NCBI RefSeq assembly: GCF_010645075.1 | Contig: NZ_JAADZV010000009.1 | Location: 1-64,000 of the forward strand | Length of the DNA stretch: 64,000 nt | From: Flavobacterium limi | Lineage (GTDB): Bacteria > Bacteroidota > Bacteroidia > Flavobacteriales > Flavobacteriaceae | Direction: 5' to 3' | Shown here: positions 22,362-56,106 of the stretch, piece after piece | How the letters are laid out: each line of letters starts with the position of its first letter | How positions within the stretch are numbered: position 1 is the stretch's first letter | Notes under the pieces: generated by a model | Seen by the model: the letters and a program-made list of their open reading frames with translations, nothing else | Databases searched by the model: none | What the model was told of the DNA's origin: nothing | Made by a program: the position numbers and the translations under genes

Positions 22362-22391
22362 TTGGTTTTTATTATATTAAAATTAACTTTG
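22362..22391 (+). promoter_or_regulatory. Promoter of the sulfur operon 1 leader cassette
   Basis: TTG at 22362-22364, 19-bp spacer, TAACTTTG at 22384-22391, a full match to the Bacteroidota housekeeping consensus. The same promoter with identical spacing and the same following bases (TCTATAGRATTAGTAG) occurs at 47630-47659 and 55952-55981. The leader to susC 1 would be about 490 nt. Confidence 0.75.
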
Positions 22392-22516
22392 TCTATAGGA
22401 TTAGTAGAGTTTAAAAAAATGTTTAAAACCATAAAAACTATATTTTGAAAACAACCGAAAGCATATCTTATTCCATTCTTTCCAAAAAAAAAACTTATAA
22501 CACATCTTGTTGTTGT

Positions 22517-22534
22517 ATGTGCTTCTGTTGCTAA
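22517..22534 (+). CDS. Leader peptide Met-Cys-Phe-Cys-Cys (uORF)
   Basis: Five-codon ORF ATG TGC TTC TGT TGC TAA about 125 nt downstream of the promoter. Two sister cassettes in the window carry Met-Cys-Ser-Cys-Cys and Met-Cys-Met-Cys-Cys at the matching position, so the Cys codons and length are conserved while the third codon varies. That pattern supports translation and a cysteine-sensing role, as in the polycysteine attenuators known from mycobacteria. Function is inferred. Confidence 0.7.
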   Translation: MCFCC

Positions 22535-22719
22535 TTCTCAAAAGCAATCCTCCGTTTTGATTCTGATTTTAATATTCAAATTACAAAGAGTCTTTCAATT
22601 CAAAAACATTCTTATTGAACATTATAAATTCTTTTTGACAATCAATTGTTCTAAAAAGAATATTCAATCTTATACGCATTAATCAACAAGTCCAATTAAA
22701 AAAAACTAAAATTACCAAA

Positions 22720-22752
22720 ATGAAAAAGATGCATAACCATTGCTGTAAATAA
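22720..22752 (+). CDS. Second leader peptide MKKMHNHCCK before the hairpin
   Basis: Ten-codon ORF with consecutive Cys codons TGC TGT followed by Lys and a stop, ending 9 nt before a conserved hairpin. Equivalent ORFs MKRSCC (33848-33868) and MKKMYSNC (47979-48005) precede the same hairpin ahead of the other two susC genes. Conservation of a basic start and Cys-containing end suggests a regulatory leader peptide. Confidence 0.6.
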   Translation: MKKMHNHCCK

Positions 22753-22761
22753 ATAAAAAAA

Positions 22762-22856
22762 GCCATTTCTGCGGCAACAGAAATGGCGAGGCTTAAAGAA
22801 AATTTATCGCTAAATAAAGGAAAATAGAGAGTTGAAAAATCAACTTTCAGGGCTCC
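22762..22856 (+). promoter_or_regulatory. Conserved leader RNA element of susC 1
   Basis: Stem GCCATTTCTG (22762-22771) / CAGAAATGGC (22778-22787) with loop CGGCAA; then GAGGCTT, a stretch AAAGAAAATTTATCGCTAAA shared with the susC 3 leader, and a second small stem AGTTG/CAACT (22830-22845) followed by TTCAGGGCTCC just before the susC start. GCGA (22786-22789) and TCGC in the shared stretch could pair as an alternative fold. Likely a cis-regulatory RNA acting with the preceding uORF. Confidence 0.6.
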
Positions 22857-22886
22857 TTGTTAATTACTTAAAACCAATACAAAGAA

Positions 22887-25800
22887 ATGAAAAAAAATAT
22901 AAATCTCATTTTATGGGTGACAATTTTATTATTATCTCTGAAATTTCAGGCACAAAATACCCAATTTATAATAAATTCAACTCTAAACGGAACTGTTTTA
23001 GACAAAATAACACAACAGCCATTACCCGGTGTTAACGTTCAGATTAAGGGAACTACCCATGGCGTAACCACGGATATAGATGGAAAATTCTTTTTTGAAA
23101 CTGGGCAAAAATTTCCTTATACCTTAATAGTTAGCATTATTGGCTACAAAAGACTACAGGTTGTAGCTGATGGAAGCCCCATAACAATTGAACTGGAAGA
23201 AGATGTTCAGCAGCTTAAAGAATTAGTAGTTGTAGGATATGGTACTCAAAGCAAAAAAAATATAACGGGATCTGTATCTTCTATACCAAAAGCAAGTTTA
23301 AATCAGGTAACCTCATCAGCAGATAACCTGCTTCGCGGAGCAGTTGCCGGAGTTGTGGTTACACAAAGTTCTGGTCAGCCGGGAGCTTCATCAAGCATCC
23401 GGATTCGTGGCGGGAACTCCATTACCGGAGGTAACGAACCTTTATATGTTATTGATGGAATTCTAGTTTATAATGACAACAATAACGGTTCTGCCGGCAT
23501 ATCATTTGCAGGAGCAGGAGTGAATGTTTTGTCCACTTTAAATCCTTCGGATATTGAATCTATTGAGGTTTTAAAAGATGCTTCTGCAACTGCAATTTAT
23601 GGTTCACGTGGTGCTAACGGTGTGATTTTAATTACTACTAAAAAAGGCAAAAAAGGACAAAATAATATTACGTATCAGGGATATTTTGGATTTCAGAACA
23701 TTACTAAAAAACTGGATTTACTGAATGCCAGCGAATGGGCAACCTTACGAAATGATATTCAGACCGGTCTTGGGCAGACGCCTTCCTTTACATCACAGCA
23801 AATTGAAGATTTTAAAACAACCGGAAATTATGACTGGCAGGATGCCGCTTTTAGGAAAGGAGCTCCAATTCAAAATCATCAATTGAGCTTTTCAGGTGGG
23901 GATGAAACTTCAAGATATTCAGTTTCTGCCAATTATTTTAAACAAGATGGAATTATCATAGGATCTGATTTCAGAAGACTTTCGTTAAGGATCAATTATG
24001 AAAAAGATGTAACCGATTTGTTTCGATTTGGTGTAACAGCAACCATAACCAATTCAGACTTTAATGGTATGAGCGCCAATAGTTCAAGTGCTGCATTAAC
24101 AGCTCCTAATACCTTAGCAGGAGTACTATTGACAGCACCTGTTGTCCCAATACGAAACCAGGACGGTACGTTTAATGTTAAAAACAATCCGTATGTAGCT
24201 TCTATAAACGGTTACATTTCAAATCCTATTAACGATTTGGAAAATATTACCAATGAAACAAAAATCAACAGAACCTTAAGTTCTTTATGGGGAGAATATA
24301 AGTTAGCCAAAAACCTTGCTCTTAAATCCACTTTAAATGCTGATATCATTAGCACCAAGCAAAATTACTACGCACCATCAAACACGACAAATGGTATTGA
24401 AACCAAAGGATATGCTTCTGTTGGAAATAAACTCGTAGGTTCTGTTTTAAATGAAAACACATTAAATTACAATACTTCATTTGGAGAAGACAAACACCAG
24501 CTGTCTGCTTTGGCCGGATATACTATTCAGTATTCTAAAGGAGAAGTAGCAACTTCCGGAGCAACTAACTTCAATAATGATTTGAGCGGATACAATGCCT
24601 TGCAGGACGGAAACCCGATAAAACCCACAAGTGATGCCTACGAAAGTGTTTTAGAGTCCTGGTTAGGGAGAGTCAATTATTCTTATTTAAACCGTTATAA
24701 TTTATCTGTTTCTGCACGTGCAGACGGATCTTCAAGATTTGGTTCTGAGTCAAAATGGGGATTCTTTTCTTCAGCAGGTTTTTCATGGAATGTTACCGAA
24801 GAAGATTTTGCTAAAAATATCAAAGGCGTAGATAATATCAAATTGAGACTAAGCGCCGGAACAACAGGAAATCAGGAAATTGGAGATTACTTGTTTTTAG
24901 CCTCTTTGGGTTCTGTAAACTATTCTTTTGGAGGAACTATTTACACCGGTTTTGCTCCAATACGATTATCCAACGAGAAATTGAAATGGGAAAAAACGAC
25001 TCAATATAACACGGGTCTTGACTTTGACTTTCTGAACAAACGAATCAGTCTTGTTTTGGATGCTTATTATAAAAAGACAACCGATTTACTGGTATATATA
25101 CCAATTCCGTTGACCACAGGTAATACTTCTGTTCTGCAAAACATCGGTGCAGTTGAAAACAAAGGATTTGAAATTGGTATTATTACAGAAAACATCAAAA
25201 CAGACAGTTTCTCCTGGAATTCTAATTTCAATTATTCAATTAACAAAAATAAAGTACTTGAAATCGGTAATGGCATACAGCAGTTTTTCCCTGTAGCACC
25301 AAGCGGTGTATTGAATTTACAACAGCCGGTTATCGTAAAAGTGGGTCAGCCCCTTGGAACATTCTGGGGTTACAGAACTGATGGTGTTTTCCAAAATCAG
25401 GACGAAATCAATACTCAGCCTACCTTAAACAGTATTGCCAATACAAAACCGGGTGACAGAAGATACAAAGACATCAGCGGTCCAAATGGTGTACCGGACG
25501 GAAAAATTACAGCTGCTTACGATAAAGTCAACTTAGGAAGTGCACAGCCCAAATTTGTAGCAAGTTTAAACAACACTTTGGTATACAGAGACTTTGATTT
25601 GAATCTGTTTTTTCAGGGTGCTTTTGGAAGTAAAATTTACAACGCAATCAACCAGCAGTTAGAAATTCCAACTTTAGGAAACAATGCAGCAGGTGCTTTA
25701 AGAGATCACTGGACTACAGCAAACCCAAGCGGGGAAATTCCAAGAGCAGCCAATTCACCTGCAACTGTAGTTTCTGACCGTTATATAGAAGATGGTTCTT

Positions 25801-26039
25801 ATATCCGTTTGAAAACTGTTACACTGGGATACACTTTACCAAAAAACATTGCTTCAAAAATCAAAACCAAAAGCGTCAAATTTTATGTTTCAGCACAAAA
25901 TTTAGTTACCTGGACCAAGTACAGTGGTTTTGATCCGGAAATTAGTTCATACGGACAAAGTAATTTATTGCCTGGTATCGATTACGGAGCTTATCCAACT
26001 TCAAAAACATTTATTAGTGGTATTAATGTCACTTTTTAA
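22887..26039 (+). CDS. SusC/RagA family TonB-dependent outer-membrane transporter 1
   Basis: TonB-dependent transporter of 1050 aa that imports a bound ligand across the outer membrane with its SusD partner. A signal peptide covers 1-22 (INLILWVTILLLSLKFQAQ), a carboxypeptidase-D-like regulatory domain about 30-108 (GTVLDKITQQPLPGVNVQIK), the plug about 112-225 (ELVVVGYGTQSKKNITG, LYVIDGIL, LKDASATAIYGSRGANGVI), and the remainder the 22-strand barrel ending in the terminal Phe of VTF. First gene of the sulfur operon. The neighbouring sulfatases suggest a sulfate ester as ligand; the exact ligand is unknown. Confidence 0.93.
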   Translation: MKKNINLILWVTILLLSLKFQAQNTQFIINSTLNGTVLDKITQQPLPGVNVQIKGTTHGVTTDIDGKFFFETGQKFPYTLIVSIIGYKRLQVVADGSPITIELEEDVQQLKELVVVGYGTQSKKNITGSVSSIPKASLNQVTSSADNLLRGAVAGVVVTQSSGQPGASSSIRIRGGNSITGGNEPLYVIDGILVYNDNNNGSAGISFAGAGVNVLSTLNPSDIESIEVLKDASATAIYGSRGANGVILITTKKGKKGQNNITYQGYFGFQNITKKLDLLNASEWATLRNDIQTGLGQTPSFTSQQIEDFKTTGNYDWQDAAFRKGAPIQNHQLSFSGGDETSRYSVSANYFKQDGIIIGSDFRRLSLRINYEKDVTDLFRFGVTATITNSDFNGMSANSSSAALTAPNTLAGVLLTAPVVPIRNQDGTFNVKNNPYVASINGYISNPINDLENITNETKINRTLSSLWGEYKLAKNLALKSTLNADIISTKQNYYAPSNTTNGIETKGYASVGNKLVGSVLNENTLNYNTSFGEDKHQLSALAGYTIQYSKGEVATSGATNFNNDLSGYNALQDGNPIKPTSDAYESVLESWLGRVNYSYLNRYNLSVSARADGSSRFGSESKWGFFSSAGFSWNVTEEDFAKNIKGVDNIKLRLSAGTTGNQEIGDYLFLASLGSVNYSFGGTIYTGFAPIRLSNEKLKWEKTTQYNTGLDFDFLNKRISLVLDAYYKKTTDLLVYIPIPLTTGNTSVLQNIGAVENKGFEIGIITENIKTDSFSWNSNFNYSINKNKVLEIGNGIQQFFPVAPSGVLNLQQPVIVKVGQPLGTFWGYRTDGVFQNQDEINTQPTLNSIANTKPGDRRYKDISGPNGVPDGKITAAYDKVNLGSAQPKFVASLNNTLVYRDFDLNLFFQGAFGSKIYNAINQQLEIPTLGNNAAGALRDHWTTANPSGEIPRAANSPATVVSDRYIEDGSYIRLKTVTLGYTLPKNIASKIKTKSVKFYVSAQNLVTWTKYSGFDPEISSYGQSNLLPGIDYGAYPTSKTFISGINVTF

Positions 26040-26056
26040 TTAAAAAATAAAACAAG

Positions 26057-27529
26057 ATGAAAAAGTTTATATTACTCTCAATAAGTACGATTCTACTGGC
26101 ATCGTGCACAGATTTAGATGTGACACCAACATCATTTGTTACCAAAGAAAATTTTTATAATACCGATGACGATGCCATTGCAAGTGTTACTGCTGTATAT
26201 GCTTCCTTAAGTTATGACGGAACCGAGCAAAGTCTTTTTGGAAGAAACCTTTACTTCCTGACAGACATGGGAACTGATTATGCTGCAGCGGGAGCATCGG
26301 CCATTAACCAAAACGTACGTGCCATTAGTGCTTTGTCTTATGATGCCAATACAGACAGGGTTCAGGTAGCGTGGAGACAAATTTACAGCGGTGTCAACAG
26401 AGCCAATATTGCGATTGACAATATTCCGAAAGTTCAGGGTACTGAGACACTCAAAGCCAGATTGATTAACGAAGCTAAGTTTATAAGAGCGTTGCTTTAT
26501 TTTCATGCTGTTCGTTTATGGGGAGGTGTTCCGTTAGTTTTACATGAACCGAAATCGTTGGCCATTGAAGATTTAAAAGCAGACAGAGCGACTGTAGATG
26601 AAGTATATACCCAAATTATTAAAGATTTGACAGATGCCGAAGCGCTTCCTACAACATACACAGGTACTAATGTGGGCCGTGCAACATCGGGAGCCGCAAA
26701 AGCGATTTTAGCAAAAGTATATCTAACGAGAAAAGACTGGCCAAATGCTATTTTGAAAGCAAAAGAAGTTATTAACGGAGGATATGGCTATGGTCTTTTC
26801 ACCAACTTTTCGGATATTTTTAATAAAGCTACTAAAAACGGAAAAGAGCATATTTTCTCTGTTCAGTTTGAACCAAATCAGGCCGGAAACGGAAGCAGCG
26901 GAAGCACTTTCATGAGAACTTCTTTTGCAGGATTTGCGCCTGTTGAACCTGCAGATATTATCTCAGATGTAAGTTTGTTTTATGATATCTACGCTGCAGG
27001 CGATACGCGCAGGGATGCTACTTATGCCAAACAATTACTTAATCCGGCAACCGGTTTATTGTACACTTTTCCAAAACCTATTTTTAGAAAATACCTGGAT
27101 GTTACCATTTTATCTAATGGTGCGAATGTGTCTATTAACTTTCCGATTATTCGTTATGCTGATATTCTGGTAACATTAGCAGAAGCCATAAATGAACAGG
27201 AAAATGCGCCAACAGCCGAAGCTTATGAAGCCATCAATAAAGTGAGAAGGAGAGCCTTTGGAAAACCAATTGATACGCCTGATACAACAGTAGATTTAGC
27301 AGGACTAACCAAAGAACAATTTAAGGAAGCGATTTTTACAGAACGTACAAAAGAGTTTGCTCAGGAAGGACAACGCTGGTTTGATCTGGTTCGTTGGGGA
27401 AGACTGGTTTCTGAAGTAAAAAAAGTACCCGGAAAATCAGCCGTTTCAGAAAGGAACAATTTATATCCGATTCCTCAAAGCGAAAGAGATCAAAATCCGG
27501 ACGGATTACCACAAAACTTAGGATATTAA
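26057..27529 (+). CDS. SusD/RagB family surface lipoprotein 1
   Basis: Ligand-capturing outer-membrane lipoprotein of 490 aa that forms the lid of SusC 1. Lipobox LLASC with lipidated Cys17. SusD features: ENFYNTDDDAIASVTAVYAS, a TPR-like helical region (LINEAKFIRALLYFHAVRLW, GAAKAILAKVYL) and the C-terminal FTERTKEFAQEGQRWFDLVRWG, NLYPIPQSERDQNP. Starts 17 bp after susC 1, the usual pair arrangement. Confidence 0.93.
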   Translation: MKKFILLSISTILLASCTDLDVTPTSFVTKENFYNTDDDAIASVTAVYASLSYDGTEQSLFGRNLYFLTDMGTDYAAAGASAINQNVRAISALSYDANTDRVQVAWRQIYSGVNRANIAIDNIPKVQGTETLKARLINEAKFIRALLYFHAVRLWGGVPLVLHEPKSLAIEDLKADRATVDEVYTQIIKDLTDAEALPTTYTGTNVGRATSGAAKAILAKVYLTRKDWPNAILKAKEVINGGYGYGLFTNFSDIFNKATKNGKEHIFSVQFEPNQAGNGSSGSTFMRTSFAGFAPVEPADIISDVSLFYDIYAAGDTRRDATYAKQLLNPATGLLYTFPKPIFRKYLDVTILSNGANVSINFPIIRYADILVTLAEAINEQENAPTAEAYEAINKVRRRAFGKPIDTPDTTVDLAGLTKEQFKEAIFTERTKEFAQEGQRWFDLVRWGRLVSEVKKVPGKSAVSERNNLYPIPQSERDQNPDGLPQNLGY

Positions 27530-27554
27530 TAACCAACCATAAAAAATTATAATC

Positions 27555-29474
27555 ATGAAAAATTTCAAAAATAACTTTACAATCAAAAGTCCGCAAAAAG
27601 GCCTTTTGATTACTGCGTTGCTTGTAGCTCAACTTGGCATTGCACAAAATCAGCCAAATGCAGATTTTAAAGGAACTGTCGGTAAAACATTGGCTGAATC
27701 AAAAGAATACTGGCCAGAACCGGTAAAAGCTCCTGCAGGTGCTCCCAACGTAGTTTGGATTTTGCTGGATGACGTAGGTTTTGGAGCTTCAAGTGCTTTT
27801 GGAGGTCTAATTGAAACACCAACTTTTGATGCTTTGGCAAATAACGGATTACGTTATACCAATTTTCATACAACAGCCATCTGCGCCCCTACCCGTGCCG
27901 CTTTGCTAACCGGAAGAAATTCAGGAAGAGTTCACGTTAGCGGTTTCTCCCATACTATTTTGTCAGCAGGTTTTCCTGGCTGGGACGGAAGAATTCCATC
28001 TGACAAAGGAACCATCGCTGAAATTTTACGCGAGAACGGCTATAACACTTTTGCAGTTGGTAAATATGGTGTAACTCCTGATGAAGAAGCTACTGATGCA
28101 GGTCCGTTTGACAGATGGCCAACCGGAAAAGGCTTTGATCATTTTTACGGATTCTTAGGATCACAAACCGATCAGTACAATCCGGATCTAGTAGAAGATC
28201 AGGTACACATAAAACCGGACGGACGCCACTTAAACGAACTGATTACGGATAAAGCTATCAGTTACATTCAAAAACAACAAAAAGCAGCACCCGGAAAACC
28301 GTTCTTTTTATACTACGCTCCCGGAGCCGCTCATGCACCACATCAGGTAGCTACAAAATGGAGTGATGCTTACAAAGGAAAATTTGACGAAGGCTGGGAT
28401 GTATACCGTGAAAAAGTATTGGCTAACCAAAAGAAACTGGGTGTAATTCCTGCTAATGCGGTGTTGCCGGAACGTAATCCGCTGATTGGGGAATGGAAAA
28501 AATTATCTCCGGACCAAAAGAAAGTCTATGCAAGATTCATGGAGGTTTATGCCGGATTTTTGACTTATACCGATGCAGAAATCGGAAGGGTTGTCAATTA
28601 TTTAAAAGAAACCAATCAGTTTGATAATACCGTGATTTTTGTTGCCATTGGAGATAACGGAGCCAGTAAAGAAGGAAGTCTGGTGGGGACCATTAACCAA
28701 AATCTCTTTGCTCAGGGCGTTTCTGACGAAAAAAATCTTCAGGACAATTTAGCCAATATTGGCGAAATCGGAACACCTCAGGGTCTTAACACCAATTACC
28801 CTTTAGGCTGGGCACAGGCGACCAATGCCCCTTTCAAAAACTGGAAACAGGATGCACAATCTGAAGGAGGAACACGCAACCCGTTAATTATTCATTATCC
28901 AAAAGGAATTAAGGATAAGGGCGGAATCAGAAATCAGTACAGTCATGTAAACGATATTCTTCCTACTACCCTTGATATTGCAGGAATAAAAGCTCCGGAA
29001 TATATCAAAGGAATCAAACAGGATATCATTCAGGGATCTTCTTTATACACTTCTTTAAACGATGCCAAAGCAGAATCTCTTCACAAAATACAATACTACT
29101 ACATTTTTGGAAACAGAGCAATTTACAAAGATGGCTGGAAAGCTGCTGCAGCGCATCCGGATCCGTTTACTTTGCTAAAAACTGCAGGTAAAAATGGATT
29201 TCCGCAGGCAAGCAATTTTGATAATGATGTTTGGGAATTATACAACTTAAACGAAGATTTTAACGAACGTAATAACCTGGCTAAAAAGTATCCTGAAAAA
29301 TTAGAGGAACTTAAAAAACTGTTTGATGAACAGGCCAAAGAAAACAATGTTTACCCATTAATTGACTGGCAGGATGTATTGGGCAGAAAAATCCACAATA
29401 CCGGTGCTGACAAAGGCAAAAACCTTCAGGAACTGATTAAAGAAGCAACGAAACCGGGAAGTGTGCAAGAATAA
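27555..29474 (+). CDS. Arylsulfatase-like protein 1 (active-site histidines replaced)
   Basis: Exported sulfatase-family protein of 639 aa with signal peptide (LLITALLVAQLGIAQ). The formylglycine precursor Cys110 lies in CAPTRAALLTGR and metal ligands Asp72-Asp73 in WILLDDVGF. Compared with the two related sulfatases in this operon, several His positions are changed: GRNHH is GRNSG, GKWH/GKYH is GKYG (Lys170 kept, His to Gly172), QYHP is QYNP (Asn209), and the GTHxP region has Arg. It also lacks their C-terminal LamG-like domain. It may have an altered substrate or reduced hydrolysis. Third gene after susC/susD. Confidence 0.88.
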   Translation: MKNFKNNFTIKSPQKGLLITALLVAQLGIAQNQPNADFKGTVGKTLAESKEYWPEPVKAPAGAPNVVWILLDDVGFGASSAFGGLIETPTFDALANNGLRYTNFHTTAICAPTRAALLTGRNSGRVHVSGFSHTILSAGFPGWDGRIPSDKGTIAEILRENGYNTFAVGKYGVTPDEEATDAGPFDRWPTGKGFDHFYGFLGSQTDQYNPDLVEDQVHIKPDGRHLNELITDKAISYIQKQQKAAPGKPFFLYYAPGAAHAPHQVATKWSDAYKGKFDEGWDVYREKVLANQKKLGVIPANAVLPERNPLIGEWKKLSPDQKKVYARFMEVYAGFLTYTDAEIGRVVNYLKETNQFDNTVIFVAIGDNGASKEGSLVGTINQNLFAQGVSDEKNLQDNLANIGEIGTPQGLNTNYPLGWAQATNAPFKNWKQDAQSEGGTRNPLIIHYPKGIKDKGGIRNQYSHVNDILPTTLDIAGIKAPEYIKGIKQDIIQGSSLYTSLNDAKAESLHKIQYYYIFGNRAIYKDGWKAAAAHPDPFTLLKTAGKNGFPQASNFDNDVWELYNLNEDFNERNNLAKKYPEKLEELKKLFDEQAKENNVYPLIDWQDVLGRKIHNTGADKGKNLQELIKEATKPGSVQE

Positions 29475-29488
29475 TTAAATAAAATTTC

Positions 29489-29914: not shown

Positions 29915-29920
29915 TAAATC

Positions 29921-30094: not shown

Positions 30095-30107
30095 AAAAAC
30101 ACATAAT

Positions 30108-33847: not shown

Positions 33848-33868
33848 ATGAAAAGAAGCTGCTGCTAA
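33848..33868 (+). CDS. Leader peptide MKRSCC before the susC 2 hairpin
   Basis: Six-codon ORF ending TGC TGC TAA, 7 nt before the hairpin at 33876. Matches the position and character of MKKMHNHCCK (susC 1) and MKKMYSNC (susC 3). No Met-Cys-X-Cys-Cys promoter cassette is present here, so this copy would work within the operon 1 transcript. Confidence 0.6.
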   Translation: MKRSCC

Positions 33869-33875
33869 TAAAAAA

Positions 33876-33966
33876 GCCATTTCTGGTGGAACAGAAATGG
33901 CGAGGCTCAAAAAAGAATATTCAATCTAAAAGGAATGCAAAAATCTGGAAAATCAATGCATCCTTT
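33876..33966 (+). promoter_or_regulatory. Conserved leader RNA element of susC 2
   Basis: Stem GCCATTTCTG (33876-33885) / CAGAAATGGC (33892-33901), identical to the susC 1 stem but with loop GTGGAA, then GAGGCTC. A second stem AAAGGA-TGCA / TGCATCCTTT (33929-33966) precedes the susC start. It also contains AAAAAGAATATTCAATCT, found upstream of the uORF in the susC 1 leader (22653-22670). Confidence 0.6.
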
Positions 33967-36900: not shown

Positions 36901-37046
36901 GTCAAAACCTGATCACGTTTACGAATTATTCAGGTTATGATCCCGAAGTAAATCGAAACGGACAATCTGCACTTAATTCTGGAGTTGACGTGGGCGTTTA
37001 TCCGGGAACTAAAACAATTTTAGGAGGAGTTAGTGTGACTTTCTAA
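33990..37046 (+). CDS. SusC/RagA family TonB-dependent outer-membrane transporter 2
   Basis: TonB-dependent importer of 1018 aa. Signal peptide 1-22 (LSLFMLSLGINAQ), carboxypeptidase-D-like domain about 30-105 (GTVVDQITNEPIIGASINIK), plug from about 110 (DVLIVGYGTQKKKDYTGSLS, LYVIDGFPVYNG, LKDASATAIYGSRGANGVI), then the barrel ending GGVSVTF. Related to SusC 1 and SusC 3 but most divergent in the extracellular loops, so probably a different ligand. Followed 25 bp later by its SusD. Confidence 0.93.
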   Translation: MKKKLYLFSFLSLFMLSLGINAQETTPLIQSKLEGTVVDQITNEPIIGASINIKGTTHGVQTDLDGKFYFQTGQKYPYTLIISFLGYKTKELVVDGSPVRIPLSADVQELTDVLIVGYGTQKKKDYTGSLSSISAEIKTLPVLSVDRILQGGIPGAQVTQSSGQPGAGTSVRIRGGTSIIAGNEPLYVIDGFPVYNGDGATDSGVTSGASINPLSSLNPTEIESIDVLKDASATAIYGSRGANGVILITTKRGKKSQLAVTYDGYYGVQKVISTIPMLNAEQWGYLKNDALKDSGKAPLYTQEQLDQLGEGTNWQDEAYTDAPIQSHTLSITSGTEQTRLLFSGNYFKQDGILINSGFDRYSGRLNIDHDLNSKFKLGLNLSGSKTHADVAPDGVVQNILAMVPVVPVRDANGQFTVNSSYGAAVANPIATMTQQINETTTTRFLFNGFGEYKIIEGLTAKVSLGTDIIENKQNRYIPSTLYESPAGGSASKGSLSSLNWLNENTISYKRKFGEKHAFDVLAGYTQQKTSSEVFRAGASNFASDEFTYNNLGSGTVITTPASGATEWSLQSYLARVNYGFDDRYLFTFTVRADGSSRFGSDNKWGTFPSAAFAWNVSNEKFLKGVEQISSLKLRLSAGLTGNQEINPYQSIARLSYYPYVFANTLVPGFAPNSFENPDLGWETTTQYNLGVDISLFNNRISLTGDVYYKKTEDLLLEVPIPYTSGLESAFQNLGAVENKGIELALKTLNFTGEFEWTSNFIFSANRNKVLSLGNGNDFFIPVNPATATTPSGIVKVGQPLGSFYMYKFDGLFQEGDDFSASPLANTKAGSQKFKDLNNDGKITQADDRTVVGNSEPLFLASFTNTFRYKNFDLVVFINSSYGNKIFNRSAADYELGTGYTGAYATLLNRWTPTNTNTNIHRAVEDPSAVLSDRYVEDGSYIRFKNISLGYTLPKKIASFLSLSSARFYISGQNLITFTNYSGYDPEVNRNGQSALNSGVDVGVYPGTKTILGGVSVTF

Positions 37047-37071
37047 AATTTAATACTATAAAATATTTAAT

Positions 37072-38604: not shown

Positions 38605-38627
38605 TAATAACTCTAAAAAAGATACAG

Positions 38628-47508: not shown

Positions 47509-47629
47509 ATTTCATATCAAAACAGAAACACTAAATCATAAAAATTTAAAAATCAATAGATTACAAACACAAATTAACAAATCACAGAGAATTCCTTCCC
47601 TATTGCTTTCAAAAAAAATAAAAAAACTT

Positions 47630-47659
47630 TTGGATATTATTATATTAAATTTAACTTTG
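47630..47659 (+). promoter_or_regulatory. Promoter of the sulfur operon 2 leader cassette
   Basis: TTG at 47630-47632, 19-bp spacer, TAACTTTG at 47652-47659. Sequence from about 47640 to 47798 aligns with the cassettes at 22362-22534 and 55952-56106. Confidence 0.75.
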
Positions 47660-47780
47660 TCTATAGGATTAGTAGGATTTAAAATCATATTAAAAATAAA
47701 AACATCTTATTTTGAAAACAACAGTCAACAACACAAATTACATTCTTCCTAAAAACTACATCTATAACACGTTTGGTTAT

Positions 47781-47798
47781 ATGTGCAGCTGTTGTTAA
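47781..47798 (+). CDS. Leader peptide Met-Cys-Ser-Cys-Cys (uORF)
   Basis: ATG TGC AGC TGT TGT TAA, about 122 nt downstream of the promoter. Third member variant of the Met-Cys-X-Cys-Cys set. Synonymous change of the last Cys codon (TGT here, TGC in the first cassette) supports selection on the peptide or on cysteine decoding. Confidence 0.7.
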   Translation: MCSCC

Positions 47799-47978
47799 AT
47801 CTTCACTATTTTTCGTTCAGGCGATTCACTATTAAATCAATCTTAAAACGAACCTGTAAAATCATCACATGCTTCTTATTGTTAATACCACACTCATTAT
47901 AGCCTATTCTGCAAAAGAAAGCATGTTCAATTATATCCAAAAATTAAAAGAAAAACAAATTTAAAACTAAAAGAAAAA

Positions 47979-48005
47979 ATGAAGAAAATGTACAGTAACT
48001 GCTAA
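47979..48005 (+). CDS. Second leader peptide MKKMYSNC before the susC 3 hairpin
   Basis: Eight-codon ORF ending TGC TAA, 9 nt before a hairpin homologous to those ahead of susC 1 and susC 2. Shares MKKM with the susC 1 uORF. Confidence 0.6.
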   Translation: MKKMYSNC

Positions 48006-48014
48006 AAAACAAAA

Positions 48015-48106
48015 TATTTCTGCGGCAACGGAAATAATAAAGTTTAAAGAAAATTTATCGCTAAATCAAAGGAACAACAGAGAGTTTAAACAAACTTTCA
48101 GGGCTT
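48015..48106 (+). promoter_or_regulatory. Conserved leader RNA element of susC 3
   Basis: Stem TATTTCTG (48015-48022) / CGGAAATA (48029-48036) with loop CGGCAA and one G-T pair, shorter than the other two. It is followed by the stretch ending ATTTATCGCTAAAT (to 48066), identical to susC 1 over 23 bases, and by AGTTT/AAACT (48083-48096) with TTTCAGGGCTTC before the start codon. Confidence 0.6.
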
Positions 48107-48136: not shown

Positions 48137-51100
48137 ATGAAAAATAATATAAACATCCTTTTATGGATTAGTATTTTATTGATTTCAACGGGAATTAATG
48201 CCCAAAATACACAAGCTACAATTAACTCTACACTCAACGGAACTGTTATTGATCAGGTTACCAATCAGCCAATTCCGGGAGTTAACATTCAGATTAAAGG
48301 TACCACCCACTCTGCTGTAACAGATTTAGATGGAAAGTTCTACTTCCAGACAGGTCAAAAGTTTCCATACATATTAATTGTAAGTTACATTGGATATGTT
48401 ACAGCTGAAATAACAGCCAATACTGATTTTGTTCAGATTTCTTTAAAAGAAGACCGAAAAGAACTGGACGAACTTGTAATCATCGGATACGGAAGCACTA
48501 CCAAAAAGGATTATACAGGTGCCGCTGAAACCGTTTCTTCTACAGCATTAAAAGCAACCCAGCGAACACTCGAAAGTTCACTTCAGGGATCTGTAGCTGG
48601 GGTAAATGTAACCCAGACTTCAGGTCAGCCTGGTGCAGGATTAAGTATCCGAATCCGCGGAGGAAGTTCGATTCAGGGAGGAAATGAGCCGCTTTATGTA
48701 GTGGACGGTTTTCCGCTTTACAATTCCGATTTCACAGCGGGAGTGCTGAGCGGTACGCCAACCAATCCTTTATCTTCTATAAATCCTGCAGATATTGAAT
48801 CGATTACCGTTTTAAAAGATGCTTCATCTACAGCAATCTACGGATCAAGAGGTGCAAATGGAGTTGTGATTATTACCACTAAAAAAGGATCTGCAAGTGC
48901 CATGACCGTAAATTATGATTTCACGATTGGACAGCAGGAAGTCCGCAATAAAGTGGATGTTCTGGATGCAAAAGGTTTTGCCCGGCTTAGAAATGCAGCA
49001 CTTTACGATACAAATCCGGCTTTAGGACCAAACCAATATTTAACCGATGCACAAATTGCCGCATTAGGTAAAGGTGTTGACTGGCAGGAAGAAGCTTTTC
49101 AAAAAGGACTTGTACAAAATCATCAGTTAAGTGTTTCGGGGGGTAACAATCAAACGAAATATGCCGTTTCCGGAAATTATTACAATCAGGAAGGAATTAT
49201 TAAAAACACCGGTTTTGAAAGACTAAGCGGAAGAGTCAATTTGACTTCCAAAATAAGCAGTAAAGCAAGATTTGGTTTGAATCTTACCATTGCAGAAACA
49301 AAATCAAAAGTTGCTCCGGCAGGTTTGATCACTTCTCTACTGAGCATGCCTCCTACTGCGACTATTTATGAGTCGGACGGGAGCTACACTTTGCGTAATC
49401 CTTTTGAAAACATATTTGCAAACCCGATTGCAACCTTAAACGAACGTAAAAACGAGGCAATTACAGATCGTATCCTCGGAACGATTTATGGGGAATATGA
49501 TATTTTGAAAAATTTAGTTTTTAAAGTATCTTTTGGAACAGATTTAATTTTCAACAAAGAGAAAAGTTACCTCCCATCTTCTATTTATGAAGGTTTGATT
49601 ACGAACGGAGAAGGTAGAATTGGTACAGCGGATTCCAGAACATGGCTGAATGAAAATACCCTTACCTACTCTAAAGTTTTTGCAGAAAAACACAGTCTGA
49701 ATGTTCTGGCCGGTTATACACAGCAAAATTCTACAAGGGAATTTGTTACGGCAGGATCGCAGCAGTTTGTAAACGATGTAACCTATTATTACAGCCTTCA
49801 AAGCGGGAATGTAGCGTTAATGCCTACTTCGGGAGAAAGTACCTGGGCTTTGAATTCATACCTATCAAGGGTAAATTACAATTACGATTCAAAATATTTC
49901 TTAACAGCAAGTTTAAGAGCCGATGGTTCTTCCAGATTCGGAAAAAACAACAAATGGGGTTACTTTCCTTCTTTTGCTGCAGCATGGCAAATTAGCAATG
50001 AAGACTTTTTTGCTCCTGTAAAAGATGTCATCAACAGCTTAAAGATCAGAACCAGTTACGGTGCTACAGGAAATCAGGAAATTGGAGAATACCAGTCGCT
50101 TGCAACATTAAGCAGCGTAAAATACCTTTTTGGAGACCAGATTTATACTGGTTTTACACCAACCAGAATCTCAAATGACGATTTAGGATGGGAACTGACC
50201 AACCAGTTTGATGCAGGTGTTGACGTAGGTTTCTTCAACGATAAATTAAACCTGACTGTTGATGTTTACCGCAAAACTACCAAAGATTTATTATTGGCAG
50301 TTCAGATTCCGTACACGACCGGATTTACATCTTCCCTTCAAAACTTTGGTACCGTACAAAATCAGGGAATTGAGTTAGGAATCAATACAGCGCTTGGAAA
50401 TACAGCCTTTTCATGGACTTCAAATTTTAATATTTCATTCAACAGCAATAAAATTATAGCTTTAGGAAATGATGCTGAATTCTACACTTTCGGAAATTAT
50501 ATCCTGAGAAAAGGAGAATCATTAGGTACTTTTTACGGTGCTGTAACCGACGGAATATTGCAGACAGCTGATATTGCTACAAAAGGGGTATTTACAGGAA
50601 ATGCAACTCCTAAAGCAGGAGACCGTTTATACAAAGATATTAATGGAGACGGTGCTTTTACAACCGCTGCAGACAGAACCAGCATTGGCGATGCTCAGCC
50701 TGATTTTATATTTGGCTTCACAAACAATTTTACTTACAGAGGTTTTGAATTATCAGCGCTTATCAATGGATCTGTTGGAAATAAAATCCTGAACGGAAAT
50801 GCACAGGCCTTAGAATTATACAACGGTCAGCAAAATGCTTCTACAAGCGCTTTGGATGCCTGGACACCAACAAATCCAAGTACGACAACACCTCGTGCAA
50901 AGCTGGATCCGGCTCCCGTTTTTTCAAACCGATTTGTTGAAGACGGCTCTTTCGTGAGAATCAAGAATATCACGTTCAGTTATAATTTACCAAAGAAGAT
51001 TTCGGAGAAACTGCTCCTGACTTCAGTGAAATTCAGAGTGGTTGGAGAAAACCTTTTCACTTTTACCAAATACACAGGATTCGATCCTGAGGTAACCAAC

Positions 51101-51184
51101 GGAACCACTATTTCTCCTGGAACAGATACCGGAATTTATCCGGCATCTAAAACAATTTCAGGTGGTTTAACTGTAACATTTTAA
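48137..51184 (+). CDS. SusC/RagA family TonB-dependent outer-membrane transporter 3
   Basis: TonB-dependent importer of 1015 aa. Signal peptide 1-22 (ILLWISILLISTGINAQ), carboxypeptidase-D-like domain (GTVIDQVTNQPIPGVNIQIK), plug (ELVIIGYGSTTKKDYTGAAE, LYVVDGFPLYN, LKDASSTAIYGSRGANGVV), then the barrel ending GGLTVTF. The N-terminal 60 residues are close to those of SusC 1, matching the shared leader, so the two operons probably arose by duplication. SusD partner 11 bp downstream. Confidence 0.93.
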   Translation: MKNNINILLWISILLISTGINAQNTQATINSTLNGTVIDQVTNQPIPGVNIQIKGTTHSAVTDLDGKFYFQTGQKFPYILIVSYIGYVTAEITANTDFVQISLKEDRKELDELVIIGYGSTTKKDYTGAAETVSSTALKATQRTLESSLQGSVAGVNVTQTSGQPGAGLSIRIRGGSSIQGGNEPLYVVDGFPLYNSDFTAGVLSGTPTNPLSSINPADIESITVLKDASSTAIYGSRGANGVVIITTKKGSASAMTVNYDFTIGQQEVRNKVDVLDAKGFARLRNAALYDTNPALGPNQYLTDAQIAALGKGVDWQEEAFQKGLVQNHQLSVSGGNNQTKYAVSGNYYNQEGIIKNTGFERLSGRVNLTSKISSKARFGLNLTIAETKSKVAPAGLITSLLSMPPTATIYESDGSYTLRNPFENIFANPIATLNERKNEAITDRILGTIYGEYDILKNLVFKVSFGTDLIFNKEKSYLPSSIYEGLITNGEGRIGTADSRTWLNENTLTYSKVFAEKHSLNVLAGYTQQNSTREFVTAGSQQFVNDVTYYYSLQSGNVALMPTSGESTWALNSYLSRVNYNYDSKYFLTASLRADGSSRFGKNNKWGYFPSFAAAWQISNEDFFAPVKDVINSLKIRTSYGATGNQEIGEYQSLATLSSVKYLFGDQIYTGFTPTRISNDDLGWELTNQFDAGVDVGFFNDKLNLTVDVYRKTTKDLLLAVQIPYTTGFTSSLQNFGTVQNQGIELGINTALGNTAFSWTSNFNISFNSNKIIALGNDAEFYTFGNYILRKGESLGTFYGAVTDGILQTADIATKGVFTGNATPKAGDRLYKDINGDGAFTTAADRTSIGDAQPDFIFGFTNNFTYRGFELSALINGSVGNKILNGNAQALELYNGQQNASTSALDAWTPTNPSTTTPRAKLDPAPVFSNRFVEDGSFVRIKNITFSYNLPKKISEKLLLTSVKFRVVGENLFTFTKYTGFDPEVTNGTTISPGTDTGIYPASKTISGGLTVTF

Positions 51185-51195
51185 AAAAGACAATC

Positions 51196-52653
51196 ATGAA
51201 AAAGACAATCCTATATAGTTTATCCCTTCTTTTTATCATAAGTGCCTGCAATCCTTTGGATGAAAATCCAAAAGCTTTTATCGGTACAGGTAACTTCTAC
51301 AATACAACAGAAGATGCTGATGCCGCTGTATTATCCATTTATAATGCTATCAACAGCAGTACACATACACTTTACAATCGTCTGATCCAAATTTCAACAG
51401 AAATGGCAACTGATGATTATGAAGCAGGACCAAGAGCCAGAAATGCACATGTTAGAGCTTTATCAAATTTGACTCACGATGCCTCAAATGACCGAATGCT
51501 GGAAATCTGGCGTCAAAGTTATGACGGAATAAACAGAGCGAATGTGGCCATTGATAACATTTCTAAAAACCCGAATTTAAATTCGCAAAAAGATAAAGAT
51601 CTGATTAATGAAGCAAAATTTTTAAGAGCAGTTTTATATTTCAATATTGTGAGATGGTTTGGAGATGTCCCGTTGATTTTACACGAAACAAAAAGCCTGA
51701 CACCGGAAGCTCTTAATGTTACCAATACCCCTGAAGCAGAAGTTTACGCTCAGATTGAAGCCGATTTACTTGATGCTGAAGCCTTGCCTGTGGTACATCC
51801 TATTAAAGGAAGAATCACTTCGGGTGCGGCAAAAAGTTTATTGTCTAAAGTATATCTGACCCAGAAAAAATGGGAAAAAGCAGCTCAAAAAAGCAAGGAA
51901 GTAATCGACAGCAAAGTGTATGATTTATTCGAAAATTTCGCTGATGTGTTTAATGTCGCTACCAAAAACGGCAAAGAACATATTTTTTCAGCACAGTTTA
52001 AAGGGCTTACCAACTGGAATGGAAATATGCTTGCCTCTACTTCTGCCCCAAATACGGTTCCGGGAATTGCAGGAGATCATGCCGATGCATTGCACACTGC
52101 AGGTGGACTTTTTAACGCTTTCGCCGAAACGGACAAACGTAAATACATCACATTTGCTGTAGAATTTGTGAGTCCGACAGATGGCAAAACCTATAAAACG
52201 ATTCCGCATTTCAATAAATATTTTGATCCGGCAACTCCTGCATCTCCTGGACAGTCTTCAAAAAACACACCGATTATCAGGTTTGCAGAAATATTATTGA
52301 TTTATGCTGAAGCAGAAAACGAGCTGAACGGCCCAACAACATCCGCTTTTGAAGCCATTGACCGTATTAGGGAAAGAGCCGGAATTGATTTGCTGTTGGT
52401 AACTTCCCCTTCAATCAGCAAAGACGATTTTAGGGAAGCTGTTTTTGAAGAAAGAAGAAAAGAACTGGTTTATGAATACCAGCGCTGGTTTGACCTTGCC
52501 AGAAGAGGCCCTGATTATTTTGTGGCCAAACTAAAAGCGGCCGGTAAAACCAATGCACAGCCAAAACATGTTCATTTCCCGATTCCGCAAAGAGAACTGG
52601 ATCTGAATAAAAATTTGAAACAGGTTCCTGCATGGAGAGATAATGCGAATTGA
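51196..52653 (+). CDS. SusD/RagB family surface lipoprotein 3
   Basis: Outer-membrane lipoprotein of 485 aa; lipobox IISAC with Cys18. SusD landmarks: GNFYNTTEDADAAVLSIYNA, LINEAKFLRAVLYFNIVRWF, GAAKSLLSKVYLTQKKW, FEERRKELVYEYQRWFDLAR and HVHFPIPQRELDLN. Partner of SusC 3. Its stop codon lies 1 bp before the start of the sulfotransferase gene. Confidence 0.92.
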   Translation: MKKTILYSLSLLFIISACNPLDENPKAFIGTGNFYNTTEDADAAVLSIYNAINSSTHTLYNRLIQISTEMATDDYEAGPRARNAHVRALSNLTHDASNDRMLEIWRQSYDGINRANVAIDNISKNPNLNSQKDKDLINEAKFLRAVLYFNIVRWFGDVPLILHETKSLTPEALNVTNTPEAEVYAQIEADLLDAEALPVVHPIKGRITSGAAKSLLSKVYLTQKKWEKAAQKSKEVIDSKVYDLFENFADVFNVATKNGKEHIFSAQFKGLTNWNGNMLASTSAPNTVPGIAGDHADALHTAGGLFNAFAETDKRKYITFAVEFVSPTDGKTYKTIPHFNKYFDPATPASPGQSSKNTPIIRFAEILLIYAEAENELNGPTTSAFEAIDRIRERAGIDLLLVTSPSISKDDFREAVFEERRKELVYEYQRWFDLARRGPDYFVAKLKAAGKTNAQPKHVHFPIPQRELDLNKNLKQVPAWRDNAN

Positions 52654-52654
52654 T

Positions 52655-54066
52655 ATGAAAAAGACAACATCAAAAATAGTTACACTGTCATTGGCAATTA
52701 CGTTGATGGCAGTGGCAAATGAAGCAAAAGCTCAGTCGGTATTTCCAACCGGAGTAACGATTTATAATCCTGCAAAAGCTTATAACAGTTATGTTTTACA
52801 TTCTTCTCCGGATGAAAAATCCCATCTGATTGATATGAATGGTAATGAAGTAAAAAGCTGGCCACATATTGGTTTTCCATCAGAACTCATTGATCCGAAA
52901 AACAATAATGGAAAGAAAGGAAATATCCTGATTCAACTCGAAAACGGACCGGGAGTTTACGGCGGTATTTTTAATAATAAAATACTCGGAGAACAAGACT
53001 GGAATGGTAATACCGTATGGCAATGGGGCAAAAAAGCGCCGGGAGGTGCAGCACGCCAAAACCATGACGTACACCGACTGGCTAACGGAAACACTTTGTT
53101 AGTTGGAACAGTTGACCATATTGTAGCCGGAGTCAGTGATAAACCAATTGACGACCAGACTATTTATGAAGTAAATCCAAACGGCGATATTGTCTGGAAC
53201 TGGAACGCCGGTGAACACATTGACGAATTCGGAATTTCTCCGGAAGGTCGTGAACTGCTTCGAAAAGTTTACATAAACGGAAGAAAGGGACACGGATTCC
53301 TGACTATTAACGATATGCAGCCTATTGGGCCGAATAAATGGTTCAATGCTGGCGATACGAGATTTCATCCCGATAATATTGTAATTGATTCCAGAGAAGT
53401 GAGCTTTATTGCGATTATCGAAAAAAAGACCGGAAAAATCGTCTGGCGTTTAGGTCCTGATTTTGATTTGAAAGAAAACGATCCAAAAGCATCCAACTTT
53501 GTAAATTCAGTAAATCTTCGACCAAGTCTGGCAACGAATGTTCCGCGTCCCGTGGATCGTTTTAGCGGACAGCATGATGCACATATTATTCCGGAAGGTT
53601 TGCCGGGTGCGGGAAATTTATTAGTATTTGACAATCAGGGACCTTCGGGTTATCCTCCAACTTATCTGGCATCTCAATTGGGTTCAAGAATTTTGGAAAT
53701 GATCCAATTAAAAAAGAAATTGTCTGGCAATACACAGCTTTAAGTTCAAATCAGCCGGTTTGGAATTTCTACAGTTCTTTTATTTCAAGCGCCAGACGTT
53801 TACCAAACGGAAATACCTTAATTGATGAAGGCATGAACGGAAGGATTTTTCAGGTAACTCCGTCTGGAGAAATTGTATGGGAATATGTGAATCCGTTTTT
53901 TAAAGAAAGTACCTTATCCGGCACACAAACTATTAATACGAATTGGGTTTTCAGGGCACAACCCGTACCTTATGACTGGGTTCCGGAAGGTACGCCACAC
54001 TCTGAAAAAGGATTACAGCCAATCGACATTTCAAAATTCAGAGTTCCACAAACAAAAAACAACTAA
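52655..54066 (+). pseudogene. Aryl-sulfate sulfotransferase, single frameshift
   Basis: PAPS-independent arylsulfotransferase family (transfers sulfate between phenolic acceptors). Signal peptide from the Met at 52655 (KIVTLSLAITLMAVANEAKAQ). Beta-propeller repeats with NTVWQWGKKAPGG, NGDIVWNWNAGEH, TGKIVWRLGPDF and EIVWEYVNP; candidate active His in SGQHDAHIIPEG. The frame is lost near 53697-53702: one missing base would restore DPIKKEIVWQYTALSSNQPVW and continue to 54066. About 470 aa if restored. No homopolymer here, so either a true mutation or a base-call error. Between susD 3 and sulfatase 5. Confidence 0.82.
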
Positions 54067-54083
54067 TATAAAATTACAGTAAG

Positions 54084-55739
54084 ATGAATCAAAAAAGAAT
54101 TACAACCTTATTCTCAGCCCTGTTGATCGGAGCATTGGGATCTTATCATGGGAATGCGCAAAGCAGTTCTTCAAAACCAAACGTAATCCTGATCATGGTC
54201 GATGATATGGGTTATTCTGACTTAGGAAATTATGGGTCAGAAATAAAAACTCCAAATCTTGATAGACTGGCAACTGAAGGTACGCGCCTTCGCGAATTTT
54301 ACAATAACTCCATTTGTGCACCAACCAGAGCTTCGCTTTTGACAGGTCAGTATCAGCACAAAGCTGGCGTTGGTTATTTTGATGTAAACTTAGGATTACC
54401 GGCTTACCAGGGGTATCTGAACAAAGAATCTTTGACTTTGGGAGAAGTTTTCCGTTCAGGCGGTTACAGCACTTTAATGTCCGGAAAATGGCACGTAGGT
54501 TCTGAAGACAAAGCACAATGGCCAAATCAGAGAGGTTTCGACAAATTTTACGGAATTTTAAAAGGTGCTGCGAATTATTTTAATACAGACGGGTTGCCTT
54601 TCGGTAAAAGCCCGTATCCGGTTGCACTAATCCGTAATAATGAAGAACTGCATCCTAAAGCGGATTCGTATTATTTTACAGATGAAATCGGGAACAATGC
54701 CGTACAATTTTTGGATGAGCAAAACAAAGAAAACAAACCGTTCTTTTTATACATTGCTTTTACTGCTCCTCACTGGCCATTGCAGGCAAAACCGGTTGAC
54801 ATAGCCAAATACAGAGGGAAATTTGATGAAGGCTGGGATGTTTTAAGAGAAAAAAGAATCAAAAAACTGAAAGAAAACGGCATTTTATTAGCCGATCAGA
54901 CGATCGCTCCAAGAGATCCTGAAGTACCGGAATGGAACAAATTAACCTACGACGAAAAACAATTCTGGAAAGCCAAAATGGAAGTTTACGCTGCAATGGT
55001 AGACAACATGGATCAGAATGTTGGAAAAGTTTTAGACAAATTAAAAGCCCTGAAAAAAGACAAGAACACACTGATTGTTTTCATTTCTGACAATGGTGCG
55101 CAGGGCGGATTCAATACTTACAATCCCTTAAGAAGAGGATTGGTGAAAAATGACGGACCAATTGGAACTTCTGGTTCTTTCGATTATCAGGAGCAAAACT
55201 GGGCGTATTTATCCAACACTCCATTGCAGGATTATAAAAATAATATGCACGAAGGTGGTTTCAGTTCGCCTTTCATTGCATGGTATCCTTCCAAAATCAA
55301 AGCAGGAAGAATTGATAAAGGAACAGGTCATTTAATTGACCTTGCCCCTACTTTTTATGATTTAGCAGGAATTCAATATCCAAAAGAATTGAATGGTGTA
55401 ACGTCAAATCCATTACCTGGAAAAAGTTTATTACCGGTCTTAATTGATGGTGCTTCAGAAGTTAACAGAGGCGCTCCGATATTCTGGGAAAGAGCCGGAA
55501 ACAGAGCAGTTAGGGATGGAAAATGGAAACTTGTTTCTATTTATCCTTCTTACCAATGGGAACTTTACAACTTAGAAACAGACCGAGGCGAAACTAAAGA
55601 TGTAGCACAACAAAACCCTGGTGTTGTAAACGAGCTTTCTGCAAAATATTTTGACTGGGCTGATAAAACCGGAGTTGTTGAATACAGCAAATTCAAACAA
55701 AAGAATGAATTGATTCCGGGTGCAGCTGCTAAAAAGTAA
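54084..55739 (+). CDS. Arylsulfatase 5
   Basis: Exported sulfatase of 551 aa. Signal peptide (LFSALLIGALGSYHGNAQ), metal ligands Asp40-Asp41 (IMVDDMGYSD), formylglycine precursor Cys78 in CAPTRASLLTGQY, SGKWHVGS with Lys and His intact, TAPHWPLQ and ISDNGAQGG, HEGGFSSP. Shorter than arylsulfatases 3 and 4, without the LamG-like domain. Last gene of sulfur operon 2; its neighbour is a sulfotransferase, so both may act on aryl sulfates. Confidence 0.92.
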   Translation: MNQKRITTLFSALLIGALGSYHGNAQSSSSKPNVILIMVDDMGYSDLGNYGSEIKTPNLDRLATEGTRLREFYNNSICAPTRASLLTGQYQHKAGVGYFDVNLGLPAYQGYLNKESLTLGEVFRSGGYSTLMSGKWHVGSEDKAQWPNQRGFDKFYGILKGAANYFNTDGLPFGKSPYPVALIRNNEELHPKADSYYFTDEIGNNAVQFLDEQNKENKPFFLYIAFTAPHWPLQAKPVDIAKYRGKFDEGWDVLREKRIKKLKENGILLADQTIAPRDPEVPEWNKLTYDEKQFWKAKMEVYAAMVDNMDQNVGKVLDKLKALKKDKNTLIVFISDNGAQGGFNTYNPLRRGLVKNDGPIGTSGSFDYQEQNWAYLSNTPLQDYKNNMHEGGFSSPFIAWYPSKIKAGRIDKGTGHLIDLAPTFYDLAGIQYPKELNGVTSNPLPGKSLLPVLIDGASEVNRGAPIFWERAGNRAVRDGKWKLVSIYPSYQWELYNLETDRGETKDVAQQNPGVVNELSAKYFDWADKTGVVEYSKFKQKNELIPGAAAKK

Positions 55740-55785
55740 TTTTTTAACCTTATCATTTGCTTTTTCACAGAGCTTAAAATTTTTT

Positions 55786-55845
55786 AAAGACAGAAAAGTA
55801 AGTATAAAAGAACATCTTATACTCATTTTTCTGTCTTTTTTTATT
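55786..55845 (+). terminator. Rho-independent terminator of sulfur operon 2
   Basis: AAAGACAGAAAA (from 55786) pairs with TTTTTCTGTCTTT, with an inner AGTATAA/TTATACT stem and a long T run. Confidence 0.75.
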
Positions 55846-55951
55846 TTAAAAAACAAAACACAAAATTCTAAAAATCAAACAATTAAAACAAAAATATATT
55901 TTACAATCCACCCATACTTCCTATCCTTTCAAAATAAAATTTAAAAAAAAT

Positions 55952-55981
55952 TTGGTTTTCATTATATTAAATTTAACTTTG
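55952..55981 (+). promoter_or_regulatory. Promoter of the cysE operon leader cassette
   Basis: TTG at 55952-55954, 19-bp spacer, TAACTTTG at 55974-55981, then TCTATAGAATTAGTAG. This third copy places cysteine biosynthesis and the encapsulin under the same kind of leader as the sulfatase operons. Confidence 0.78.
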
Positions 55982-56088
55982 TCTATAGAATTAGTAGAGT
56001 TTAAAATAAAAACAACTATATTTTGAAAACAACAGAAAGCATATCTTACATTCTTCCTAAAAAACACACCTATAGCACCTTTTGTTAT

Positions 56089-56106
56089 ATGTGTATGTGT
56101 TGTTAA
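56089..56106 (+). CDS. Leader peptide Met-Cys-Met-Cys-Cys (uORF)
   Basis: ATG TGT ATG TGT TGT TAA about 108 nt downstream of the promoter and 164 nt before cysE. An inverted repeat TTCGTTT/AAACGAA follows (56120-56166) and could form an attenuator hairpin. A cysteine-codon leader ahead of serine acetyltransferase is the textbook place for amino-acid-responsive control. Confidence 0.72.
   Translation: MCMCC

Follow-up and report, generated by a model that had tools for sequence, protein, structure and literature searches.

A duplicated promoter-leader cassette with cysteine codons as a candidate attenuator of sulfur operons in Flavobacterium

Within 64,000 nucleotides from the genome of Flavobacterium limi (contig NZ_JAADZV010000009.1, positions 1 to 64,000; this whole stretch is called the window below) one and the same promoter-leader cassette stands three times in front of operons for sulfur metabolism, which raises the question of what a repeated unit does before genes as different as those for sulfatases, cysteine synthesis and an encapsulin. 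According to the comparison presented here, and with a probability of roughly three in four, what was duplicated is a promoter together with its leader, and through it several operons that scavenge sulfur or make cysteine come under the control of a leader-peptide attenuator that senses charged tRNA-Cys. An earlier note on this DNA, made from the letters alone, had located the cassettes at 22362-22534, 47630-47798 and 55952-56106, and a check of the sequence confirmed these positions. Each copy opens on the plus strand with a Bacteroidetes-type promoter (TTTG ... TAACTTTG) and a box lying over the expected transcription start, TCTATAGGATTAGTAG in the first copy (22361-22407, 47629-47675 and 55951-55997, respectively). 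In the whole 5.4 Mb genome the sequence TTTGTCTATAGRATTAGTAG has three exact matches, all within the window, and the remaining matches carry three mismatches. The cysteine mini-frame pattern ATGTGYNNNTGYTGYTRR is found four times, namely in the three cassettes and at position 136999 of contig C24, where no cassette is present and the match, read by eye, apparently lies inside a coding region. A chance origin of the three cassettes is excluded.

The genome scan with TGYTGYTGYTRR gave 86 matches and was uninformative. Rfam covariance models produced no gathering-level match to the leaders, and at E values up to 5 the matches were no better than chance; by this missing match a known riboswitch, T-box or known RNA leader family was rejected as the identity of the cassette. 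Elsewhere in the window, at 13281-13365 on the minus strand, lies a Flavo-1 RNA (RF01705) with a score well above the gathering threshold.

The leader reading frame and its cysteine tail

The five-residue open reading frame (ORF) Met-Cys-X-Cys-Cys, opened by ATG and regarded by the earlier note as the leader itself, turned out in all three window copies to be only the 3'-terminal part, in frame, of a longer reading frame, ORF A, whose TTG start lies 66-72 nt upstream of this tail. ORF A encodes MKTTESISYSILSKKKTYNTSCCCMCFCC in the first cassette (A1, 29 residues, 22445-22534), MKTTVNNTNYILPKNYIYNTFGYMCSCC in the second (A2, 28 residues, 47712-47798), and MKTTESISYILPKKHTYSTFCYMCMCC in the third (A3, 27 residues, 56023-56106), each closed by a stop codon on the plus strand, and the conserved peptide of 27-29 residues with TTG or GTG start can be written as MKTTESIS..YILPKKYTYNTFCYMCxCC. 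Among 120 non-redundant Flavobacterium leaders in which both anchors could be set, the start codon at the equivalent position is TTG in 93 and GTG in 26. In 117 of them it lies 69, 66 or 72 nt ahead of the cysteine tail, and the remaining three were anchored on an incorrect match, while the spacing between promoter and start ranges over 34-59 nt. In 100 unique 28-residue leaders cysteine occupies codons 25, 27, and 28 in 97, 99, and 99 cases, respectively, with TGC and TGT mixed; codon 26 is free to vary. The synonymous share of single-base changes is highest in the ORF A frame when compared with the two other frames. Thus the synonymous exchange of cysteine codons claimed in the earlier note was borne out, and these codons are conserved in orthologous leaders, their non-conservation having been named there as an argument against the proposal.

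Two leaders (L127 and L159) have GTA in place of the internal ATG, yet their long frame and CCCC tail are kept, and the five-residue ORF was therefore rejected as the main functional unit. Because the frame and the cysteine codons are conserved across the leaders, the mini-ORF is understood as encoding the C-terminal part of a longer leader peptide, and from this conservation we infer that ORF A is translated.

A hairpin, H_A, is formed by codons 17-24 of ORF A, and its 3' arm ends at the first cysteine codon of the tail (plus strand, 22496-22519 in A1, 47763-47783 in A2, and 56071-56091 in A3). In 95-100% of the leaders its base pairs are preserved, with double compensatory changes, and the mean z against shuffles is -3.7, the plus strand being more stable in 62 leaders and the minus strand in 27. 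Leader A falls into two classes that are only about 30-40% identical but carry the cysteine tail and a hairpin at the same place, and the arms of H_A differ between them on both sides (TATAACA/TGTTATA versus ATTCGAC/GTCGAAT). This observation bears on the explanation that the conservation merely reflects a recent shared origin of the duplicated copies, for which the restriction of the cassette to one genus and the position of its copies within a few tens of kb of each other in many genomes may be quoted. In the diverged classes, however, the frame and the cysteine tail persist, as does a hairpin whose sequence differs, although flanks and spacing have changed, so that this explanation is already disfavoured and is considered scarcely credible.

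Genes behind the cassette and related leaders of the family

In the genus survey the box was sought in 300 genomes with up to 2 mismatches, so that some chance matches are included, and it was present in 93; a scan of named genomes yielded more than 100 Flavobacterium loci. Sorted by the next gene, 117 leaders precede a SusC-type gene (93), a sulfatase (9) or a CysE/encapsulin operon (10), with 5 left unassigned. The genus-wide search for enrichment before sulfur genes that the earlier note had proposed thus came out in its favour, as SusC, sulfatase, CysE or encapsulin operons follow the leader in 112 of 112 assignable loci. For an independent control the loci were chosen from CysE and not from the cassette: of 16 sampled encapsulin-type cysE operons (CysE of 72-100% identity) 15 have the cassette, directly upstream of CysE in nine and about 2 kb earlier, before a preceding sulfatase, in six, and only the operon of one genome (G088) is without a leader. 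In a genome labelled F. johnsoniae CI04 the cassette stands ahead of a sulfatase-cysE-cysK-encapsulin series. No cassette was found before the 34 other CysE genes of the genus, including 11 paralogs in the same genomes. Outside the genus no leader A or cassette was found at detectable similarity; four weak peptide matches were inspected and judged to be chance, at least two of them overlapping plain coding genes, and chance matches of the box pattern in other genera have no leader ORF behind them.

In the window the genes downstream of the cassettes were confirmed by Pfam and NCBIfam to be those previously named. Operon 1 (22887-29474) comprises SusC, SusD and a sulfatase; operon 2 (48137-55739) comprises SusC, SusD, an ASST-like protein and a sulfatase; operon 3 (56271-61121) encodes CysE, CysK, a family 2A encapsulin shell and an encapsulin-cargo cysteine desulfurase, all on the plus strand. 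The CysE start is probably near 56271 (MNSFYQE..., kept in relatives) rather than at 56214. The statement that the cassettes head all three sulfur operons is inexact; a further SusC, SusD and sulfatase operon, at 33990-40904 on the plus strand, has no cassette. Between the cassettes, at 29.5-47.4 kb, lies a sulfur-scavenging region that encodes a rhodanese (31302), a Cons_hypoth698 (YeiH-like) membrane protein (46146) and an enolase-superfamily enzyme as well as additional sulfatases.

Other leaders with cysteine or methionine codons occur in the family. Unrelated cysteine attenuators with GC-rich canonical terminators precede cysE at five loci and at one more from another genus, with peptides such as MAVLTNKCTECMCFPLYGDALTVHDN and MRTVALNAVICMCCLL; a loosely defined cysteine ORF was seen at 13 of 43 cysE loci of other genera against about 5 expected, and only those bearing a terminator were taken as leaders. 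In a second Flavobacterium group cysHDN is preceded by one or two tandem cysteine leaders, most with a canonical terminator (seven loci, the identity of cysH and cysD being confirmed), and none convincing was found before cysHDN in 10 genomes of the window's own clade, where operon heads were called automatically. The metY gene (O-acetylhomoserine sulfhydrylase, confirmed) has Met/Cys-rich leaders with canonical terminators, often in tandem, in several genera. Such leaders were found at six loci, one of them with Met and no Cys, and also in the window's own genome outside the window (contig C11, position 441849). Leaders unrelated to the cassette, with Cys or Met/Cys codons and textbook terminators, stand before cysE, cysHDN and metY, and they support the view that members of the family habitually sense sulfur status through amino-acid codons, the window cassette being a terminator-poor variant.

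These leaders are also relevant to the explanation that control is mainly at the promoter, with a transcription factor that responds to sulfur using the box CTATAGRATTAGTAG over the expected start as its operator, and the leader peptide adding a minor or second layer. The box is nearly invariant and conserved far better than the rest of the leader, and a palindrome-like TTTAGAAAATTAATCTAAA was read by eye in the promoter region of related leaders of a second Flavobacterium clade. However, the conservation of the box is inflated by its use as the search pattern for collecting leaders, and an operator leaves unexplained the cysteine codons under synonymous change, the conserved frame, and the cysteine leaders standing behind different promoters in relatives. 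As the principal mode of control this explanation is improbable, while promoter-level control through the box in addition to attenuation is a serious possibility. Still less probable, and regarded as very doubtful, is that the tail acts as a peptide, for example by binding metal, zinc or thiols, and not as a codon sensor. The Cys-X-Cys-Cys tails do resemble metal ligands, and the N-terminal half of leader A is conserved as well, but cysteine is the tracked residue also in unrelated leaders of other operons with canonical terminators directly behind them, and the leader A classes keep the cysteine tail and hairpin position at the low identity described above.

The region downstream of ORF A and a second cysteine frame

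The 20 nt following the stop codon of ORF A contain 24% C and 9% G. Downstream of this C-rich stretch many leaders can form a hairpin, H2 (TTCGTTT...AAACGAA), accompanied by a short run of T; its window copies are placed on the plus strand after A2 (TTCGTT...AACGAA, 47809-47852) and after A3 (TTTTCGTTT...AAACGAA, 56118-56171). The alignment of the region behind the stop was too gappy for RNAalifold, which gave no consensus. The 5' arm of H_A can alternatively pair with the cysteine codons, and no clear antiterminator to H2 was seen.

Upstream of all three SusC genes of the window, including the cassette-less one at 33990, a second short cysteine ORF (ORF B) and a conserved hairpin are present, which were overlooked previously. 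This element B lies between cassette A and SusC; ORF B typically reads MKTMQSCCCK, and ATTTCTGCGGCAACAGAAAT follows about 9 nt on. In the window it reads MKKMHNHCCK in operon 1 (22720-22752), MKKMYSNC in operon 2 (47979-48005), and MKRSCC in the operon without cassette A (33848-33868), each on the plus strand. The hairpin P1 follows at 22762-22787 (GCCATTTCTG CGGCAA CAGAAATGGC), at 48014-48037, and, with the loop variant GTGGAA, at 33876-33901, and in operon 1 a terminator-like stem-loop, P2, with a weak U-tract is found at 22816-22858 (fold z -4.9 for 22745-22872). At least two cysteine codons are present in 76 of 95 such ORFs, with 130 TGT and 91 TGC codons. A covariance-model search for element B gave matches within the genus only and none outside it, and no Rfam family matches the element.

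For element B it has to be considered whether it is not a leader ORF at all and serves instead as the template of a minus-strand regulatory RNA that terminates at P1 and would be comparable to the cis-antisense RNAs known from Bacteroides polysaccharide utilization loci (Cao et al. 2016, as cited in PMC9723704). The P1 of operon 1 reads on the minus strand as a canonical intrinsic terminator with a T7 tail (1 found versus 0.1 expected), and because of this an antisense RNA keeps a place among the explanations; the minus-strand folding energy of P2 is lower in 74 of 101 cases, and P1 is kept in sulfatase leaders without ORF B. Such an RNA does not explain the repeated, mixed TGT and TGC codons of ORF B, and inspection by eye revealed no conserved promoter on the minus strand at element B, so the antisense explanation is possible and rather doubtful. 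Folding energy does not decide the strand of P1, P2 or H2, and G-U wobbles were dropped as proof of the plus strand, A-C mismatches being equally frequent.

Proposed attenuation and comparison with known systems

In the attenuation reading the ribosome would start at the weak TTG or GTG codon of ORF A, read about 23 codons, melt H_A, and reach the cysteine codons just before the stop. With ample Cys-tRNA it would finish and leave, and the freed RNA behind the stop would permit premature termination, either by entry of Rho at the C-rich, G-poor stretch or at the weak terminator-like H2. With scarce Cys-tRNA the ribosome would wait on the last cysteine codons with H_A presumably melted and, because these codons lie at the very end of ORF A, would cover the stretch after the stop, so that transcription would continue. 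In SusC operons ORF B with P1 and P2 may form a second checkpoint in series. The frame of ORF A, the conservation of its cysteine codons and of H_A, and the association with genes are the parts of this reading that were observed directly; translation, stalling, the termination step, and the cysteine response with its direction are inferred, and the controlled genes are probably on only when the cell is short of cysteine. In Synechococcus starvation for sulfate induces SrpI, a relative of the encapsulin, together with its cysteine desulfurase (PMC8049743), which is the direction that the attenuation model predicts.

Several facts weigh against this reading. No canonical plus-strand terminator was found after ORF A in 22300-22900, and H2 is modest (mean z -1.8), with the opposite strand folding equally well or better. 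In some SusC leaders ORF B contains a single cysteine or none at all. Part of the conservation of ORF A stems from H_A and not from the peptide, and many leaders are closely related, because the cassette is confined at detectable similarity to one genus. For the earlier note this means that its core idea, a cysteine-codon leader ORF regulating sulfur operons, finds good support in the comparison (codons, frame, more than 100 loci, paralog controls, and leaders of relatives), while its choice of ORF and the omission of the second cysteine ORF had to be corrected. A broader proposal, for which the balance is even, is that Flavobacterium has a cis-encoded cysteine-starvation regulon, in which the cassette, with the second cysteine ORF in series in SusC operons, would govern sulfatases, the sulfur encapsulin, the synthesis of cysteine and the TonB-dependent import of sulfated compounds via a non-classical termination step, while in Flavobacteriaceae more widely metY and cysHDN would be under tandem Met/Cys attenuators.

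The cassette is a cis-element open to direct test, and it would reveal under which conditions a flavobacterium exploits sulfated substrates as a source of sulfur and not of carbon. If the reading is true, the sulfur encapsulin is tied to cysteine supply, and cysteine-codon attenuation is extended to Bacteroidota, a phylum for which, as the earlier note had supposed, no cysteine leader was found described in searchable open-access papers. The tandem Met/Cys leaders of the family are a ready set for comparing terminator-based with terminator-poor versions of the sensor.

Actinobacteria are already known to have cysteine-codon leaders, and in Rhodobacterales such leaders have been described as a motif. 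Within the same genus, leader-peptide attenuation was likewise inferred in Flavobacterium psychrophilum upstream of amino-acid biosynthesis operons, and the main text of that work names no cysteine, sulfatase or encapsulin operons (PMC9723704). The mycobacterial precedent invoked in the earlier note is correct: cysteine leader peptides of cys operons are described in Mycobacterium, Propionibacterium acnes and before cbs in Bifidobacterium, those of Mycobacterium having cysteine runs near the stop and no terminator, with Rho proposed (PMC1262725), a Cys-rich upstream ORF (uORF) precedes cysA2 (PMC4633059), and polycysteine attenuators are also cited in PMC13236596. The Flavobacterium cassette resembles them in the short ORF before sulfur genes, the cysteine run adjoining the stop codon, and the absence of a clear terminator, with Rho proposed. 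It differs in the phylum, in the TTG or GTG start, which in most leaders lies 44-59 nt downstream of the promoter TTTG and thus is not leaderless as in the mycobacterial form, in H_A at the cysteine codons, in its dispersal before TonB-dependent SusCD/sulfatase and encapsulin operons, and in the second cysteine ORF in series. The uORFC-8-2 motif before cysS in Rhodobacterales shares conserved tandem cysteine codons in a uORF with UGC/UGU exchange, but belongs to Alphaproteobacteria, has these codons at positions 14-15, and ends in an intrinsic terminator (PMC8632094).

With the trp/his-type attenuators the cassette has in common a leader ORF carrying codons of the regulated amino acid, and the relatives in the family have canonical terminators, whereas behind ORF A in the window the terminator hairpin with U-tract typical of trp was not found and H2 is suggestive only. 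The features general to leader peptides, a conserved short upstream frame (117 of 120), cysteine codons conserved through synonymous change, and downstream operons from the pathway of the amino acid concerned (CysE-CysK-encapsulin, sulfatase and SusCD-sulfatase), are present. In tnaC of Escherichia coli a ribosome that halts on reaching the end of the leader ORF keeps Rho away from the RNA beside the stop, and stalling occurs on free tryptophan through the nascent peptide. A similar shielding of the RNA behind the stop from Rho is proposed for the Flavobacterium cassette, where, unlike in tnaC, the ribosome would stall by starvation on the cysteine codons.

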